Source: Kordiimonas pumila (lineage in GTDB: Bacteria; Pseudomonadota; Alphaproteobacteria; Sphingomonadales; Kordiimonadaceae). Taken from it: a DNA stretch of 64,000 nucleotides. The notes under the pieces are model-generated. The model was not told the origin of the DNA. It saw only the letters and a program-made list of their open reading frames with translations, and did no database searches. Location of the stretch: NCBI RefSeq assembly GCF_015240255.1, contig NZ_CP061205.1:3148501-3212500 (forward strand), read 5' to 3'. Position numbers and translations under genes: made by a program. This document shows, piece after piece, positions 46,885 to 54,564 of the stretch (position 1 is the stretch's first letter; each line of letters begins with the position of its first letter).

Positions 46885-47604
46885 TCAAAGAGAGGTCTGG
46901 TTAACCCGCTTCATTAATTCTTCTGCGCTTTCAACCCGCTCAGAATACCGGTCAACCAAACAGGCAGCATTATCACGGGTTAAAAGAGTGAACCTAACAA
47001 GCTCCTCCATCACATCAACAATGCGATTATAATAGCCTGAAGGCTTCATTCTGTCGTTTTCATCAAACTCTAAAAAAGCTTTAGCAACGGATGATTGATT
47101 AGGAATGGTAAGCATGCGCATCCACCGCCCCAAAATGCGCAATTGATTCACGGCATTAAAAGACTGCGAACCACCGCACACCTGCATAACAGCAAGGGTT
47201 TTGCCCTGTGTCGGGCGCACTGCGCCAAGGGAGAGTGGTATCCAGTCTATTTGGGCTTTCATAATGCCGGTCATGCTGCCATGCCGCTCTGGCGAGCACC
47301 AGACCTGCCCTTCAGACCATACAACAAGGTCTCGTAGTTCCTTTACCTTGGCGTGCGTGTCATCTGCATCATCGGGTAGCGGTAGGCCAGAAGGGTCAAA
47401 TATTTTTACATCCGCCCCCATACGCAGCAAGAGCCTCGCACTTTCTTCTATCACAAGCCTACTAAAGGAGCGCTTTCTAAGCGAACCATACAACAATAAG
47501 ATTCTCGGCTTATGCGTGCTATACCGAGCTGCAAAGCTTGTAATATCCGGCACCTCAAATTGTGCCTCATCAATGTTTGGCAATGATAAATCAGGCAACA
47601 CCAC
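46885..47604 (-). CDS. arsH: Arsenical resistance flavoprotein ArsH
   Basis: This 239-residue NADPH-dependent FMN reductase-fold protein has the FMN phosphate loop [12 protein letters not shown] (residues 39-50) and [19 protein letters not shown], both typical of ArsH. ArsH oxidises trivalent organoarsenicals such as methylarsenite to the less toxic pentavalent form. It starts with a GTG 4 bases after the arsC stop and is the last gene of arsR-arsC-arsH. Confidence 0.93.
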
Positions 47605-47608
47605 AATA

Positions 47609-48067
47609 TTACACCAATACCCTAAGCGCAGATTGCCAGTTTGCTCTATCTAGTTCAGCAACAGTCCGCAAAGCATCTACTCTTTCAGAAATAACATCGA
47701 TCGCATTATTGAATGCAGCCTTCACTTCCTGCTCTGTCCCTTTTAGTTTAGAGGGATCTTCAAGCCCCCAGTGCAGTTTTATGGCTTTACCAAACCACAC
47801 TGGGCATGTTTCTCCGGCAGCTGAATCGCAAACAGTAATAACAACATCTGGGTCAAAGCTTTCATGATCATCCCATGACTGACTGACAAGCCCAGTTACA
47901 GGAAAGCCAGCCTCAGCCAGATACCTGATGGAAAGCGGGTGCACTTCTCCTGCCGGCTGGCTTCCGGCACTTTTTGCAATTATTGTACCCTGCGATTTAT
48001 GGTTCGTAACCGCCTCTGATAAAATACTGCGGCACCTGTTATGAGTGCAAATATACAAAATTTTCAT
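47609..48067 (-). CDS. arsC: Arsenate reductase (thioredoxin-linked, LMW-phosphatase fold)
   Basis: This 152-residue protein has the CX5R phosphatase loop C7-THNRC-R13 and two more cysteines at C80 and C88 ([14 protein letters not shown]), matching the three-cysteine thioredoxin-coupled ArsC type (as in S. aureus, Cys10/82/89). It reduces arsenate to arsenite in the cytoplasm. It lies between arsR and arsH. Arsenite needs an exporter that is not encoded here. Confidence 0.93.
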
Positions 48068-48098
48068 TAACTATTTCTTTCCATGGCTAGTGACAACA

Positions 48099-48422
48099 TC
48101 ATGCGCCACCTGACGACTGCTTTAACAAATTTAGACACGGCTTTAGGTATGCCTCATTATTATCAACCGACATTTGCAGTATCGTACGTACCCACGCTGG
48201 CAGGTTTGAGTTCAACTGATAATAAACCCACTTGCCGCGACGCTCATCTTGCAGCAAACCACATTTCCTTAACTCGGCTAAGTGCCTCGATATTTTGGGC
48301 TGGCTTAAGTCTAGGGCAGATTGCAGATGGCAAACGCATAACTCACCTTTAACCGTAATTAGCAACAAAGACTTTAAGCGTGTATCATCAGACAAGCATT
48401 TATAAAAAGTGAGTGGTGACAT
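48099..48422 (-). CDS. arsR: ArsR family metalloregulator
   Basis: This 107-residue winged-helix repressor carries the arsenite-sensing ELCVCHL motif with C29 and C31 in the recognition region, and the DNA-binding helix LSQPKISRHLAELRKCGLL. An additional Cys (C45 region, RKCG) might serve as third ligand. It heads the arsR-arsC-arsH unit, 31 bases before arsC. The palindromes just upstream are its probable operator. Confidence 0.93.
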   Translation of the reverse strand: MSPLTFYKCLSDDTRLKSLLLITVKGELCVCHLQSALDLSQPKISRHLAELRKCGLLQDERRGKWVYYQLNSNLPAWVRTILQMSVDNNEAYLKPCLNLLKQSSGGA

Positions 48423-48619: not shown

Positions 48620-51600
48620 TTAGTCTGTGGTAGTTGGCGCCTCATGCGCACGATGGTTTTGTGCAATAAGAGTGTAGAAAGTTGGTAGAACAAACAACGT
48701 AAAGAGTGTTCCAATCAACATACCCATAACAACCACAATACCGATGGCGAAACGGCTTGCCGCACCAGCACCCACTGCAAAGATAAGCGGTATAAGCCCT
48801 GTAATCATTGCCGCCGTGGTCATTAAAACAGGCCTCATACGAACAGAAGCAGCTTCAACAATTGCATCCCGGCGATTATAGCCTTTCGTTAATTGAATCT
48901 CATTTGCAAAAGCCACCATCAGAATACCGTGTTTTGAGATCAACCCGATCAAGGTTACAAGACCAATCTGGGTATAAATATTGATCGTCGTAAAACCTAG
49001 ATACAGCGGCAGCAAAGCACCGCAAAGAGCAAGCGGCACCGTAACCAAAATAACCAATGGGTCACGAAAGCTTTCATACTGTGCCGCTAGCACAAGGAAA
49101 ATAACGATCAGCGCAAGACCAAAAGAAATGGTTAACTGGTTACCCTCATGAACATATTGACGGCTATCAGCGAGCCAGTCGATTGTGGTGCCCGCGGGTA
49201 ATGGCTGAGACTGCATGAAGGAAACCGCCTGCCCCATCGTCACCCCAGGACGCAAAACAGCAGACATTGTTGCAGCGTTCATTTGGTTGAACTGCGACAA
49301 ATAATTGGCCTGCACGCCCACTTCCACCTTAATGACCGTAGACAAAGGAACCAAATCGCCAGACTTGGTCCGCACGAAATAGCGGCCAAGGCTTTCGGGT
49401 GTAAGACGGTCCTTTTCTCGCACCTGTGGGATAACATCGTACGATCGCTCAAAATAGTTGAAGCGATTGATATACCCTTCCCCAACCAATGAGCTTAACG
49501 TACTAGCAATATCCTGCATGCTAATATCCATTTCGCCAGCCTTTGCAGCATCAATTGTGATATGTGCGGTAGAGCTATCGAACGCAAGGTTGCTATCAAC
49601 AAAGACAAACAAACCACTACTGCGGGCCGCGGCCTTTAGTCCTTCCATATCATTAAACAGCGCCCCAAAGCCTGCAGTTGAGCGCAACACCATTTGAAAC
49701 GGCACACCCTCTTCAGCAGCAGGCAGTGCCGTTGGCTGGAAAGGAGTAATCAGGGCACCACGAACATTATTGGCCATACCATAAAGCTGGTTTTGTACGT
49801 CAGTTGCGCTGCGGTCACGCTCGCTCCACTCTTTCAGCATAATACCGCCAAACGCATTATTGAGGCCACCTTGGCCCGTCACAAAAAAGCTGCCATCATA
49901 CTCTGGAAAGCTTTTAAATATCTCCACCATTTCCAGAGCAACTTTATCTGTATATTTAATATTGGCATACTGCGGGGCCTTCACCGCTGTAAACACATAA
50001 CCTTGGTCTTCTTGCGGCGCCAATTCCTTTTGGCTACCAAGAAACATAAAGGCACTTGCGGCCATTGTTGCTGCTGCCAGTAGCAGCATTGCAGACCGGT
50101 ATTGAAGAGTGATTGCTAAAAGCCGGGCATACCCACGAGCCATTTTCTCAAAAAAGCGTTCAACAGCTTTAGCAAAGCCACCTTCAGAAACCTTCCTGTT
50201 CAAAAGTTTCGCACTCATCATGGGGGATAACGTCAAGGCAATCACCCCTGAAACACAAACAGAGCCTGCCAAAGTAAAGGCAAATTCCCTAAACAGACTA
50301 CCTGTCAAGCCGCCCATCATGCCAATAGGTGCATAAACAGCGGCCAATGTAATTGTCATTGCAATAACCGGCCCGACAATTTCTCTGGCACCAACTATCG
50401 CCGCCTCAACTCTGGACAGTCCCTCTTCAATATGACGGTGGATATTTTCCACAACTACAATGGCATCATCCACAACAAGTCCAATCGCCAAAACCATGGC
50501 AAGCAACGTTAAAAGGTTAATGGAAAAACCAAATGCCAGCATCAATGCCGCTGTCCCAATGATAGACAATGGAATTGTAACAACTGGGATAATGACAGAG
50601 CGAAAAGACCCAAGGAAAAGAAAGATCACAACGACCACAATCGCGATTGCTTCCATAAGCGTATTCTTCACTTCGTCAATAGAGGCATTAACAAAATGAG
50701 TAACATCAAAAACGCTTTTGACGGTTAGCCCTGGCGGTGCCACTTTCTGTATCTCAATAATCAGCTTTTTTGTGTCCTCAACAATGTCAATCGGGTTTCC
50801 GTCTGGCGTTGGAGCAATAGCGAGTATCACCCCAAGCTTCCCATTATCGCGCGAGCGTGAATCATAATTTTGCCCGCCCAGTTCAATAGTACCAACATCA
50901 CCAAGGCGAACTAAGCCACCATTGTCGCCACCACTTTTAATAACCATTGAACGGAAATGCTCAATATCCACAACATCAGTTGCGGCGGTAATATTCATCA
51001 CAGTTTCGCCGTTCCTCAACTGGCCGGGTGCAGCCTGAACATTATTGCGGACAAGAGCTGATGTTACATCAGACGCTGCTAAATCTCTTGATGCCAGCTT
51101 ATCTGGATCAAGCCAGATGCGCATGGCAAGAGGCTGCCCACCGGAATAATCAGCGGAAGCAACACCAGGCACAGAAGTGAATAAAGGCTGCGCAACACGT
51201 GTTGCAAAGTCTGTTACTTGCGGCAACGACAGCGTATCACTCATGAAAGTGATATACTGAACAGCTGATGCGCCGTCTGTGATTTTTGAAATTACAGGGT
51301 CAAAAACACCGTCCGGCAATAAATATTTCACCTGTTGAACCTTGGCCAGAACTTCAGTCATTGCCCTGTCTGAATCAGCATTGATAACAAGCTTTACTTT
51401 AATCTGGCTTGAGCCCTGCTTTGACGTAGATGACAGATATTCAATACCGTTCACTGTAGCAACTGCTTGCGCAATAGGTGTGGTTACAAAGCCCTGCATC
51501 ACTTCCTGTGTGGCACCAGGATAAGATGTTGCAATGGTAATGGTTGCACTTTGTAAGTTCGGATACTGGCGAACAGACAATGAAAAAATAGAAACAGCTC

Positions 51601-51673
51601 CAACCAGAAAAATAAGAATACTGATAACAATGGAAAGGATTGGCCGTTTTATAAAAAGATCAGTTGAAATCAT
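48620..51673 (-). CDS. RND family efflux pump, HAE-1-like inner-membrane subunit
   Basis: This 1017-residue pump begins ISTDLFIKRPILSIVISIL and has the twelve-helix RND plan. The TM4 proton relay GLVVDDAIVVVENIHRHIEEG keeps both aspartates (D407/D408 of AcrB), unlike the pump at 11777. It belongs to the hydrophobe/amphiphile efflux group that exports drugs, bile salts or solvents. It overlaps the adaptor gene by 4 bases. No outer-membrane channel gene is adjacent. The operon is preceded by a structured leader RNA (52884-53040). Confidence 0.93.
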   Translation of the reverse strand: MISTDLFIKRPILSIVISILIFLVGAVSIFSLSVRQYPNLQSATITIATSYPGATQEVMQGFVTTPIAQAVATVNGIEYLSSTSKQGSSQIKVKLVINADSDRAMTEVLAKVQQVKYLLPDGVFDPVISKITDGASAVQYITFMSDTLSLPQVTDFATRVAQPLFTSVPGVASADYSGGQPLAMRIWLDPDKLASRDLAASDVTSALVRNNVQAAPGQLRNGETVMNITAATDVVDIEHFRSMVIKSGGDNGGLVRLGDVGTIELGGQNYDSRSRDNGKLGVILAIAPTPDGNPIDIVEDTKKLIIEIQKVAPPGLTVKSVFDVTHFVNASIDEVKNTLMEAIAIVVVVIFLFLGSFRSVIIPVVTIPLSIIGTAALMLAFGFSINLLTLLAMVLAIGLVVDDAIVVVENIHRHIEEGLSRVEAAIVGAREIVGPVIAMTITLAAVYAPIGMMGGLTGSLFREFAFTLAGSVCVSGVIALTLSPMMSAKLLNRKVSEGGFAKAVERFFEKMARGYARLLAITLQYRSAMLLLAAATMAASAFMFLGSQKELAPQEDQGYVFTAVKAPQYANIKYTDKVALEMVEIFKSFPEYDGSFFVTGQGGLNNAFGGIMLKEWSERDRSATDVQNQLYGMANNVRGALITPFQPTALPAAEEGVPFQMVLRSTAGFGALFNDMEGLKAAARSSGLFVFVDSNLAFDSSTAHITIDAAKAGEMDISMQDIASTLSSLVGEGYINRFNYFERSYDVIPQVREKDRLTPESLGRYFVRTKSGDLVPLSTVIKVEVGVQANYLSQFNQMNAATMSAVLRPGVTMGQAVSFMQSQPLPAGTTIDWLADSRQYVHEGNQLTISFGLALIVIFLVLAAQYESFRDPLVILVTVPLALCGALLPLYLGFTTINIYTQIGLVTLIGLISKHGILMVAFANEIQLTKGYNRRDAIVEAASVRMRPVLMTTAAMITGLIPLIFAVGAGAASRFAIGIVVVMGMLIGTLFTLFVLPTFYTLIAQNHRAHEAPTTTD

Positions 51674-52791
51674 TGCCCTACAGCCCCCGCATGGTCATCA
51701 CCTTGCACAACTGTTACCGAAGACCCCGGATAGACACGAACCTGACCGTCCAAAATTACTACTTCACCAGCCATTACACCTTTTTCAATCACAACACGGT
51801 CACCCACATGCTGTCCTGTAATGACAGGCACAATAGTAACCGTGCCATCTTTTACTTTATACACCATGTCACCGTAAGCGCTGGTCTGCACAGCGGTAAG
51901 GGGAAGAATAATCACATTATCCCTACTAGGTAGCTCAACATGAACTGTCACAAAAAGGCCAGGACGCAGAAGATCACGGTCGTTACTGAGTGTAGCCTGC
52001 ACTGCAATATTACGCGTATCGGCATTAATCACAGGGTTAATAGCATTAATATATGCTTCAAATTGCTGACCTGGATAAGCGTCTGTTTCAACAATCACCT
52101 TGCCATCAACCGCTAGCTTACTCAGTTCTTGCTGTGGCACGGTAAAGTTCACATACAGTTCATCAAGTGCGGTCAGGTGTGTAAAGCTAACGCCAGGGTC
52201 CACATACTGGCCAAGGTCTGCGTTCCTGATACCAATTTGGCCGCTAAAAGGCGCACGAATGAGCATTTTCTGGCCAATAAGAGCATTAAGCTGGTTCACT
52301 GCTGCGTGGGCTTGCTCCAGTTCAGAGACGCGGAGCTGAAGGGTTTGTGTGGACTCAGCCCCCGTGGAACTGAGTTCTTTGGCACGGCGCAGTTGCAGTT
52401 CCGCATATTTAACCTGCGCCATAGCGCCAGCAAGCTGAGCGCGTTCAACACTGTCATTGAGCTGTACGAGCGGGTCCCCCACCTTAACCTTTTGGCCTGA
52501 TACAAAATGTAATGCCGATATTGTTCCAGCCACTTCAGATGCGATATCTACTTCCTGCTTTGCTTTAAGCGAGCCAATAGCTTGCAGCGCTTGAGGCAAG
52601 CTTTCAGGGTGAACTATACTGGCATTGACCGGGGTGGGCGGTGCTTCATGACCGTGCCCCATCGATGCACTATCGCGGGCCGATTTCCATAGATAAACAC
52701 CATAGAAAACAGCCGTAATCATGACTATAACAATAATAAAAACAAATATTTTGCGCTGCCTCTGAGGCTGTTGAAGCTGAGTTTCAGGCAT
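51670..52791 (-). CDS. RND efflux periplasmic adaptor
   Basis: This 373-residue membrane fusion protein has an N-terminal anchor (IFVFIIVIVMITAVFYGVYL), the first lipoyl half (SEVAGTISALHFVSGQKVKVGDPLVQLND), a helical hairpin, the second lipoyl half (MLIRAPFSGQIGIRNADLGQYVDPG) and a beta-barrel domain. It lacks an obvious lipobox. A Met/Gly/His-bearing patch (SMGHGHEAPPTP) follows the membrane anchor; such patches sometimes bind metals, which is suggestive next to the ars genes but not proof. The start shares TAATG with a 31-codon upstream ORF. Confidence 0.92.
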   Translation of the reverse strand: MPETQLQQPQRQRKIFVFIIVIVMITAVFYGVYLWKSARDSASMGHGHEAPPTPVNASIVHPESLPQALQAIGSLKAKQEVDIASEVAGTISALHFVSGQKVKVGDPLVQLNDSVERAQLAGAMAQVKYAELQLRRAKELSSTGAESTQTLQLRVSELEQAHAAVNQLNALIGQKMLIRAPFSGQIGIRNADLGQYVDPGVSFTHLTALDELYVNFTVPQQELSKLAVDGKVIVETDAYPGQQFEAYINAINPVINADTRNIAVQATLSNDRDLLRPGLFVTVHVELPSRDNVIILPLTAVQTSAYGDMVYKVKDGTVTIVPVITGQHVGDRVVIEKGVMAGEVVILDGQVRVYPGSSVTVVQGDDHAGAVGQ

Positions 52792-52886
52792 TATTCAGCT
52801 CCAAAAACAAAGGATTGACGCGATAAGAAAGCCCTAAAACTACTATTAAAGGCCACATTCAAATATGATTTTTTATATGAAATCAT
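52791..52886 (-). CDS. 31-residue upstream ORF coupled to the adaptor gene
   Basis: An ATG at 52886 is preceded by AAGAGGA at an ideal 8-base spacing and opens a frame of 31 codons (MISYKKSYLNVAFNSSF..., ending FVFGAE). Its stop TAA overlaps the adaptor ATG as TAATG, so ribosomes finishing it could restart on the adaptor, which has only a weak Shine-Dalgarno of its own. The peptide is basic and Ser/Phe-rich with no known relatives. Its ribosome binding site can be hidden in a hairpin. It may be a coupling leader rather than a functional protein. Confidence 0.55.
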   Translation of the reverse strand: MISYKKSYLNVAFNSSFRAFLSRQSFVFGAE

Positions 52887-53040
52887 GAAACTATCCTCTT
52901 AAACATTAACAAGAGGCGCATTGTTTCATCAAGAATCCACGCGCCTCAAGGGCGCCGTGGGATCGCACAAATAAGCGACTGACTACTTGCAAAAGCAAGC
53001 TACCGGATCAACCAACCGGCTATTTCATTCATTTTCGACA
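52884..53040 (-). promoter_or_regulatory. Structured leader RNA of the second RND operon (candidate attenuator or riboswitch)
   Basis: Read on the minus strand, hairpins follow in order: H1 GCCGG/CCGGU (53020-53002), H2 GCUUGC/GCAAGU with UUUU loop (53000-52985), H3 GUCGC/GCGAU (52979-52962) and H4, a strong CCAC-G-GCGCC/GGCGCGUGG stem (52960-52937). The 3' arm of H4 can instead pair as GAGGCGC with GCGCCUC (H5, 52947-52941 with 52919-52913). H5 in turn excludes H6, CCUCUU/AAGAGG (52916-52911 with 52900-52895), which buries the Shine-Dalgarno of the 31-codon ORF. Thus H4 plus H6 is the off state and H5 the on state. The trigger is unknown. Confidence 0.6.
53000..53032 (-). CDS. 10-codon leader ORF in the RND leader RNA
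   Basis: ATG at 53032 opens MNEIAGWLIR and stops with TAG at 53002-53000, just at H2. There is no Shine-Dalgarno, but the predicted transcription start lies about 8 bases upstream, so it would be translated as a nearly leaderless message. Its codons overlap hairpin H1. A ribosome moving on or stalling here could shift the hairpin balance downstream. Existence as a translated peptide is inference. Confidence 0.35.
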   Translation of the reverse strand: MNEIAGWLIR

Positions 53041-53046
53041 CGCAAA

Positions 53047-53074
53047 TATATATGTTTACAAGAAATAAAATCAA
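53047..53074 (-). promoter_or_regulatory. Promoter of the RND leader transcript
   Basis: On the minus strand TTGATT (53074-53069) and TATATA (53052-53047) are 16 bases apart, predicting initiation near 53040, directly ahead of the leader ORF and structured region. Confidence 0.55.
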
Positions 53075-53138: not shown

Positions 53139-53180
53139 TAAACAAAAGGCCTCGTCAAAACTGGCGAGGCCTTTTGTTTA
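53139..53180 (-). terminator. Terminator of the tRNA-Met gene
   Basis: A perfect 16-bp inverted repeat (53139-53154 and 53165-53180, core AAAAGGCCTCG/CGAGGCCTTTT) with a 10-base loop lies immediately beyond the tRNA 3' end, with a T-rich tract in the minus direction. Confidence 0.85.
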
Positions 53181-53181
53181 T

Positions 53182-53258
53182 TGGTAGCCGAGGAGGGACT
53201 CGAACCCCCGACACGCGGATTATGATTCCGCTGCTCTAACCAGCTGAGCTACTCGGCC
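53182..53258 (-). tRNA. tRNA-Met (anticodon CAT, elongator type)
   Basis: The minus strand folds as a complete cloverleaf of 77 bases with encoded CCA: D-arm GCTCAGCTGGTTAGAGC, anticodon arm GCGGA-ATCATAA-TCCGC with CAT, and T-arm with TTCGAGT. The anticodon arm is the one usual for alphaproteobacterial elongator tRNA-Met, not the GGG/CCC stem of the initiator. The acceptor begins GGCCGAG and pairs with CTCGGCT, giving a G1-U72 wobble. An Ile2 (lysidine) tRNA is the alternative for a CAT anticodon but fits the sequence less well. Confidence 0.95.
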
Positions 53259-53946: not shown

Positions 53947-54564
53947 TTATTTACTGGAAAAAGCCAGAACCACATCAATAGTGTGATCAATAAACCGTTT
54001 CAGCTTTTCATCAGGCTCGCCGTCCAGCTTCATTTGTGCAAGTGCCTGACTGGCGGAAAGCAAAATCCGAGCATCATCGCGGTTATCTTGCCGCGGCAGG
54101 CCACTGTGCGCCCATATAATTTCGCTAACCTTGGTGAGCAACTCCCCCTGAAAAGCCAGATACCGATCTCGTAGCTGTTTATCGAACCGCGTACTAAAGC
54201 CCAGCAAGACTCGCACATAATTAGGGTGTTCATCTTCCGCATGCAGCATGCGCCCTGCAAGCTCACGCAGTATTGCTGCAGCGCCGCCTTTCTCAGGCTG
54301 CACACCATCAAACAAAGCAAGAAAATACCGGCTCACTTCATCAGACACATCTAACAGCAAGGCATCCCGTGTTGGAAAATATACAAATGTAGAAGCTGTA
54401 GACATGCCCGAGCGTCGAGCAATATCAGCGTGCTTTGCCTCACCAATGCCTTTTTCGGCGAACAGGTCAATTGCAACCACTAACAATTGCTTTTTTCGCG
54501 CCTCTGGCGACAGTCTTGTGCGGCGCTGTCCAGACAAAGCCTGCTTTCCCCTGTATATGCCCAC
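53947..54564 (-). CDS. TetR family transcriptional regulator
   Basis: This 205-residue protein has a TetR DNA-binding domain (LSPEARKKQLLVVAIDLFAEKGIGEAKHADIARRSGMSTASTFVYFPTRDALLLDV) after a basic N-terminus, and a variable C-terminal domain. It starts at a GTG without a clear Shine-Dalgarno. A short ACTATAGT palindrome overlaps the region immediately before the start. No divergent target gene is adjacent, so its regulon is unknown; it is the closest regulator to the second RND operon but separated from it by tRNA and osmC. Confidence 0.88.
   Translation of the reverse strand: MGIYRGKQALSGQRRTRLSPEARKKQLLVVAIDLFAEKGIGEAKHADIARRSGMSTASTFVYFPTRDALLLDVSDEVSRYFLALFDGVQPEKGGAAAILRELAGRMLHAEDEHPNYVRVLLGFSTRFDKQLRDRYLAFQGELLTKVSEIIWAHSGLPRQDNRDDARILLSASQALAQMKLDGEPDEKLKRFIDHTIDVVLAFSSK

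Follow-up and report, generated by a model that had tools for sequence, protein, structure and literature searches.

The window analyzed here is a 64,000-nucleotide stretch of the Kordiimonas pumila genome. On its minus strand we found an RND efflux operon preceded by a hairpin-rich leader and a small open reading frame (ORF). The features are as follows; SD denotes a Shine-Dalgarno sequence, and openness its predicted unpaired fraction.

53045..53074, minus strand: candidate sigma-70-type promoter, TTGATT-18-TATATT, with a transcription start expected at about 53038
52937..52960, minus strand: H4, a hairpin of the predicted fold
52913..52947, minus strand: H5, an alternative helix (52947-52941 with 52919-52913), incompatible with both H4 and H6 (-46.3 versus -53.1 kcal/mol)
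52885..52929, minus strand: H6, a hairpin with an outer stem, predicted to mask the SD at 52900-52894 together with two bases of the AUG at 52886 (SD openness in the full leader, 0.11)
52791..52886, minus strand: small ORF of 31 codons from the ORF scan, its TAA overlapping the adaptor ATG (TAATG)
52773..52802, minus strand: second hairpin, GGAGCUGA with UCAGCUUC, predicted by folding to mask the adaptor's own SD (openness 0.007)
51670..52791, minus strand: RND periplasmic adaptor gene, by protein family assignment
48620..51673, minus strand: RND permease gene, by protein family assignment, with an ATGA overlap with the adaptor gene

Genes resembling arsR, arsC, and arsH lie directly downstream of the pump on the same strand (46885-48422).

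A first-pass annotation had proposed H4, H5, and H6 from the sequence. H4 is present at 52960-52937, in both sequence and folding. H5 is indeed GAGGCGC (52947-52941) paired with GCGCCUC (52919-52913), a helix of 7 pairs, and as proposed it has one arm in common with H4 and bases 52913-52916 in common with H6. For H6, the CCUCUU/AAGAGG pairing held (52916-52911 with 52900-52895, within a stem of 52916-52910 with 52901-52895), but its extent had been understated. An outer stem, AUGAAAC (52929-52923) with GUUUCAU (52891-52885), had been missed, and in the predicted fold this stem engages the two AUG bases. The description of the three hairpins as mutually exclusive did not survive folding. In the minimum-energy fold (-53.1 kcal/mol), H4 and H6 are both present, while H5 excludes both and, when enforced, gives a fold that is 6.8 kcal/mol worse (-46.3 kcal/mol). 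Because H4 and H6 coexist in the minimum-energy fold, the switch logic is H4 plus H6 versus H5.

We then started the RNA in silico at different positions. With a start at 52950, which removes the 5' arm of H4, the mean openness of the SD rose from 0.11 to 0.58. With a start at 52935, neither arm of H4 is left, and SD openness was 0.10. In prediction, the leader has the hidden SD of an ermC-type attenuator and the alternative helix by which such an SD is freed; 18 of 199 gene starts from the same genome equal it in this. We rejected an RNA thermometer, with predicted SD openness of 0.057 at 15°C, 0.097 at 37°C, and 0.131 at 60°C.

The fold was compared with shuffled sequences and with gene starts of the same genome, the latter being crude calls, made from ORFs of 200 codons or longer that have an SD match of at least 4; the adaptor is included among them. 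None of 200 dinucleotide shuffles folded with an energy as low as that of the 181-base leader (z, -2.73). In the comparison with gene starts, the energy was equally low in 2 of 400 shuffles and in 14 of 199 starts. Shuffling the part upstream of the SD gave, in 11 of 400 cases, an SD at least as hidden and at least as strongly opened by 5' truncation; the 18 of 199 gene starts noted above are matches by the same combined test. In a 120-base context the SD of the small ORF is unremarkable, as 46 of 200 genes are equally closed. Openness averaged over -14 to +2 was 0.43 for the small ORF and 0.41 for the adaptor, and the mean was 0.43 for 83 loci of pump relatives (the best 80 of 472 relatives plus L007-L009), so that by this measure both starts are ordinary. 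We conclude that leader structure is above shuffles, yet not rare among real gene starts, and that the switch-like behavior is modestly unusual. By itself, the structure of the leader proves nothing.

The first-pass annotation had taken AAGAGGA to be the ribosome site of the pump. We found instead that the SD at 52900-52894 serves the 31-codon ORF (ATG at 52886), not the adaptor. The adaptor has its own SD, GGAG at 52802-52799, which pairs with the downstream UCAGCUUC. Of 200 gene starts in this genome, the adaptor itself counted, 4 have an SD with openness this low, as does 1 of the 46 relatives with a script-detected SD. An SD-led mini-ORF overlapping a gene start was found at 8 of 199 gene starts, the small ORF included. 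The locus has both marks of a coupled leader ORF: an SD-led small ORF overlaps the next start, and the SD of that next start is hidden. The small ORF matched 0 NCBIfam families, and small-ORF peptides gave a best E value of 0.16 in a tblastn search of the 83 relative loci (best 80 of 472 plus L007-L009).

The expression-platform or attenuator architecture proposed earlier is thus borne out in the H4-plus-H6-versus-H5 layout and not in its target or balance, since the gated SD is that of the small ORF and H5 is the less stable state by 6.8 kcal/mol. The ermC-type translational attenuators, as presented in a paper on attenuation of resistance genes (PMC5418344), are alike in having a hairpin over the SD of an ORF downstream, with an alternative helix that would free this SD. 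They differ in that no SD-led leader ORF was found here over the 5' arm of H4 and in that the masked SD belongs to the small ORF rather than to a resistance gene. If the leader worked by ribosome stalling, as ermC does, a ribosome halted on an ORF upstream would cover the 5' arm of H4, H5 would form, and the SD would be freed. H4 plus H6 versus H5 is the layout that such a mechanism uses, and in silico removal of the H4 5' arm does free the SD. However, the frames that run over this arm start with TTG or GTG and have no SD in our scan, and the ATG-started ORF MNEIAGWLIR (53032-53000) stops 40 bases before H4. We consider ribosome stalling of this kind improbable.

We searched for relatives of the leader. 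An Rfam 15 scan of the whole window at the gathering threshold returned RNase P and tRNA only and no family at the leader, in agreement with the earlier statement that the leader is not recognizable as a known riboswitch class. Among 19 genomes of the genus, the leader DNA was found in its own genome only, and a search of plasmids gave no match. In 384 other genomes of the class, only pieces of 27 to 46 bases matched, in 9 genomes (E, 4.8e-4 to 7.2e-3), and these are taken for chance. Against the 83 relative loci (best 80 of 472 plus L007-L009), blastn gave one 19-base match (E, 2.9) and nhmmer none. A search of viral contigs with a 17-base exact motif matched 4 contigs, a lead that gave nothing. 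We rejected the leader as a repeated element, with one match in its own genome at an E of ≤0.01. Very near genomes may be missing from some of the collections searched for the leader.

We also built a structure model of H4 plus H6, R1, from the one sequence. R1 scored 117 bits in the window, and its next best score in the 83 loci (best 80 of 472 plus L007-L009) was 12.5 bits. Elsewhere it reached at best 25.3 bits among 29 genomes of the family and 26.7 bits among 346 genomes of the order. At an E of ≤0.05 per genome in 345 other genomes, 3 matches were seen versus about 17 expected by chance, a search in which the filters lose weak matches. The matches were weak and were dropped, and those whose surroundings were examined stand in unrelated contexts. 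L111 has a Dps-like gene on one side and a TonB receptor on the other, L133 lies inside a MutM-like gene, and L134 is an H4-like hairpin only, before an outer-membrane efflux gene. L112 and L066 were dropped with them. Because no relative of the leader was found, we grade it, from its predicted folds, as a plausible gate and not a proven switch.

Aptamers are as a rule conserved across species. A riboswitch sensing a drug or metal through H1-H3 would account for a structured leader with an alternative helix, but no Rfam family matched at the gathering threshold and no conservation of the leader was found. The assignment of H1-H3 as the sensing part, made in the first-pass annotation, found no support. 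Nothing supports the riboswitch reading of this leader, and we regard it as barely conceivable.

Three promoter-like sites were present in 901 bases versus a shuffle mean of 2.2; the candidate promoter is thus no evidence by itself. An imperfect AT-rich palindrome lies over the candidate -10 box (53043-53057), a possible operator or chance. The strongest rival of a gate is an ordinary long 5' untranslated region with transcriptional control, in which the hairpins would be chance, the leader would play no regulatory part, and the pump level would be set by transcription, either constitutively or by an unlinked repressor at this palindrome. Lack of conservation of the leader, the 18 of 199 gene starts that behave alike, and the position of the palindrome at the -10 region all fit such a region. 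On the other hand, the palindrome is an AT run that may be chance, the fold has a z of -2.73, the adaptor SD is among the most hidden, and the order of leader, small ORF, and adaptor recurs in relatives. Weighing these points, we see an ordinary untranslated region as a serious contender that nonetheless is somewhat doubtful.

The leader lies downstream of a tRNA-Met gene and of a 19-base inverted repeat with a 4-base loop (53139-53180). The repeat looks like the tRNA-Met terminator; the terminator scan did not list it. We found the tRNA region in 15 other genomes of the genus at an E of ≤1e-15. The tRNA loci fetched from those genomes (about 1.5 to 3.1 kb) carried OsmC in 7, a TetR gene in 6, and the adaptor in none. 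The sequence behind tRNA-Met varies among the six other loci compared, a pattern like that of an insertion hot spot. Across 29 family genomes, adaptor matches outside the operon (E, ≤1e-40) were 31 to 38% identical; there were 4 such matches, one of them in the same genome as the window. Because the other loci fetched from the genus are without the adaptor and the matches in the family are only 31 to 38% identical, the pump is probably an addition at the tRNA-Met site. When the tRNA-Met region (53182-53258) is set beside loci L091-L093, L098, L099, L102, and L104, the pump is seen only at the site in its own genome among the loci fetched. The TetR-family gene at 53947-54564 has a weak likeness to LuxR/HapR-type regulators. 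We rejected this neighbor as a dedicated repressor of the pump, as it also adjoins this tRNA in 6 other genomes of the genus, and the loci fetched from those genomes show no pump.

Relatives of the pump were collected to see how it is controlled elsewhere. A contig search with the adaptor alone gave nothing, and a search with a 4-row alignment gave 472 relatives, of which the best 80 were kept; counts over 83 loci refer to these 80 plus L007-L009, with the adaptor starts inferred. The closest adaptors among the best 80 of 472 are about 50 to 55% identical. We looked for a SoxR-type box, whose consensus we take to be CCTCAA-N6-TTGAGG. In a stretch running from 500 bases upstream of the adaptor start to the 60th base of the gene, the box was present at ≤1 mismatch in 25 of the 83 loci (best 80 of 472 plus L007-L009), against a background of 1 in 680 stretches of the window's own genome and 2 in 1,044 stretches elsewhere in the relatives' loci. 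The boxes of the relatives lie between recognizable -35 and -10 hexamers. In the same stretch, 57 of the 83 loci (same selection) have no box at ≤2 mismatches, which counts against a family-wide rule. A scan of 23 upstream genes included 4 of the MerR family and 2 of the TetR family.

In contrast to these box-bearing relatives, we observed no SoxR box in the 560 bases searched at the window's pump. The best site there has 3 mismatches and lies inside the adaptor, and 136 of 680 background stretches do as well. We rejected H4 as a SoxR box; it matches one half-site exactly (CTTGAGG) but has 4 mismatches in the other. With the SoxR-like protein of L016 as the query, the genomes of 9 of 10 relatives, one of them the query's own, matched at an E of ≤1.6e-49, and the best loci of all 9 encode the CX2CXCX5C motif. 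The tenth genome, that of L010, gave a best match of 1.7e-13 without this motif. The genome of the window gave 4 MerR-family matches (best E, 2.4e-9), none with CX2CXCX5C. Because L010 comes from a metagenome bin, its missing SoxR is weak evidence.

The adaptor tree is based on one protein, and the branch leading to the window is long (0.55). It places the window with L010 (100/99), within a clade of 12 rows (95/97). Within this clade the box is present at ≤1 mismatch in 9 rows and at 2 mismatches in L012, and we observed none in the window and L010. The simplest history suggested by these sequences is that SoxR control was lost once, in the common ancestor of the window's pump and L010. Most likely, then, the leader sits on a pump that lost SoxR control. 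For comparison, MexGHI-OpmD is induced through SoxR, according to PMC9272787. This pump is of the same broad kind as that of the window, whose close relatives have a SoxR-type box and, in most genomes tested, a SoxR gene. The window differs from the system as outlined there in that its operon has no box and its genome no motif-bearing SoxR-like protein.

Behind the SoxR-type box of 18 of the 83 loci (best 80 of 472 plus L007-L009), at the first start codon of the operon, we found a leader element of the relatives' own, R2. It reads (G)UGUCGGCYUG-loop-CARGCYUCC-...-GGAGCCGACAUG and is less complete in Bradyrhizobium. Examples are as follows.

L012, 3883-3964
L013, 3851-3934
L016, 2246-2328
L054, 3911-3991
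L009, 3681-3755
and 13 other loci

R2 members score 42.9 to 66.4 bits, and the next matches in the same 83 loci (best 80 of 472 plus L007-L009) score ≤17.2 bits; 13 of the 18 strong members are rows of the model, to which the remaining 5 are closely related. L011 seems to carry R2 with an insertion, with a score of only 16.9. Six loci (L035, L038, L043, L053, L059, and L088) have a near box but no R2. At L019 (from 3069), L027 (from 3114), and L041 (from 3028), the SoxR-type box is followed by another kind of hairpin, GCTCCC/GGGAGC or GCTTCC/GGAAGC. A scan of 8 loci found no Rfam family matching R2. In 357 genomes of the class at an E of ≤0.01, R2 was found only in the genome of L007 and as a chance match; the match in G102, inside a LigA-like gene, was dropped as chance.

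We examined the two stems of R2 for covariation. In a 13-row alignment, 94.9% of the cells of P2 (GGCYUG/CARGCY) are paired and two-sided changes occur at 2 of 6 pairs, a level reached by 19 of 500 shuffles. On 20 distinct model-fitted rows, changes occur at 3 of 6 pairs (8 of 500 shuffles), with five of the 23 rows being weak matches; alignment A7 includes these five. P1 (UGUC/GACA) has no compensatory change and is broken in three Bradyrhizobium rows. The sequence comparison thus suggests modest covariation support for R2.

In L009, L021, L022, and L029, the AUG of R2 opens an ORF of 51 to 55 codons whose product starts M-I/N-L-F/L-YEPL-N/D-P. Its end lies at the adaptor start or no more than about 5 bases from it, with TAATG in L022 (provided that translation begins at the first in-frame ATG) and ATGA in L021; the ORFs of L009 and L029 are near copies. 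L026 has a 32-codon ORF that ends far upstream. The window and some relatives therefore share the layout of a leader followed by a small ORF and the adaptor. Like the window's leader, the R2 element is structured and sits at the first start codon of an operon of this kind, and in some loci a small ORF runs from it up to the adaptor. It differs in that R2 has no significant match, in sequence or structure, to the window's leader.

We rejected the leader as a member of R2, as it scores 5.2 bits over 16 bases versus 42.9 to 66.4 bits for the family. It could still be a degenerate copy in which H2 is the former P2 and the remainder has been rebuilt. The similar layout and the resemblance of H2 (GCUUGC-UUUU-GCAAGU) to P2 (GCUUGC-loop-GCAAGC) agree with such an origin. 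However, the likeness is confined to those 16 bases (E, 0.2 for 601 bases), the opposite strand of the same hairpin scores 3.6, and a wider search gave no match in the window's own genome. We judge descent from R2 to be very improbable.

For PA5471.1-armZ-mexXY, transcriptional attenuation of an anti-repressor gene has been proposed, as stated in PMC12057347. That system likewise has a short ORF in the leader region, ahead of genes by which the level of an RND pump is set. It differs in that the window's small ORF overlaps the pump gene itself and in that we found no terminator between leader and adaptor. PMC7298713 concerns peTrpL and smeABR. At the level of titles and the openings of abstracts, the literature names no leader of such a kind on a SoxR-type pump, a scope that does not show that none is in print.

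Taken together, the predicted folds and gene overlaps lead us to favor, tentatively and at somewhat less than even confidence, a lineage-specific translational gate with a coupled small ORF. According to this model, the transcript would start at about 53038 and fold by default into H4 plus H6, and H6 would mask the SD and part of the AUG of the 31-codon ORF. Because of the TAATG overlap and the second hairpin over the adaptor SD, translation of the adaptor would depend largely on ribosomes arriving through the small ORF, and translation of the permease would be coupled to that of the adaptor through the ATGA overlap. With this chain from small ORF to adaptor to permease gated by H6, basal synthesis of the pump should therefore be low. 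Of the structures seen, H5 alone would free the first SD, and its formation would require H4 to be broken. Against the gate, the leader is not conserved in any collection searched, the small ORF has no detected homologue, H5 costs 6.8 kcal/mol, and the promoter evidence is weak.

The gate would act on a pump whose relatives are SoxR controlled and that itself appears to have lost this control. A further step, that a lineage without SoxR kept the principle of a leader plus small ORF and evolved the H4/H5/H6 gate to control pump output, so that a protein regulator was swapped for an RNA one, seems to us unlikely on present evidence. If the gate works, SoxR control would have been exchanged for control at the RNA level after the loss of SoxR, a clear case of regulator replacement. 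The R2 element and small ORFs of the relatives raise the question of whether SoxR-regulated efflux has a second, translational layer.
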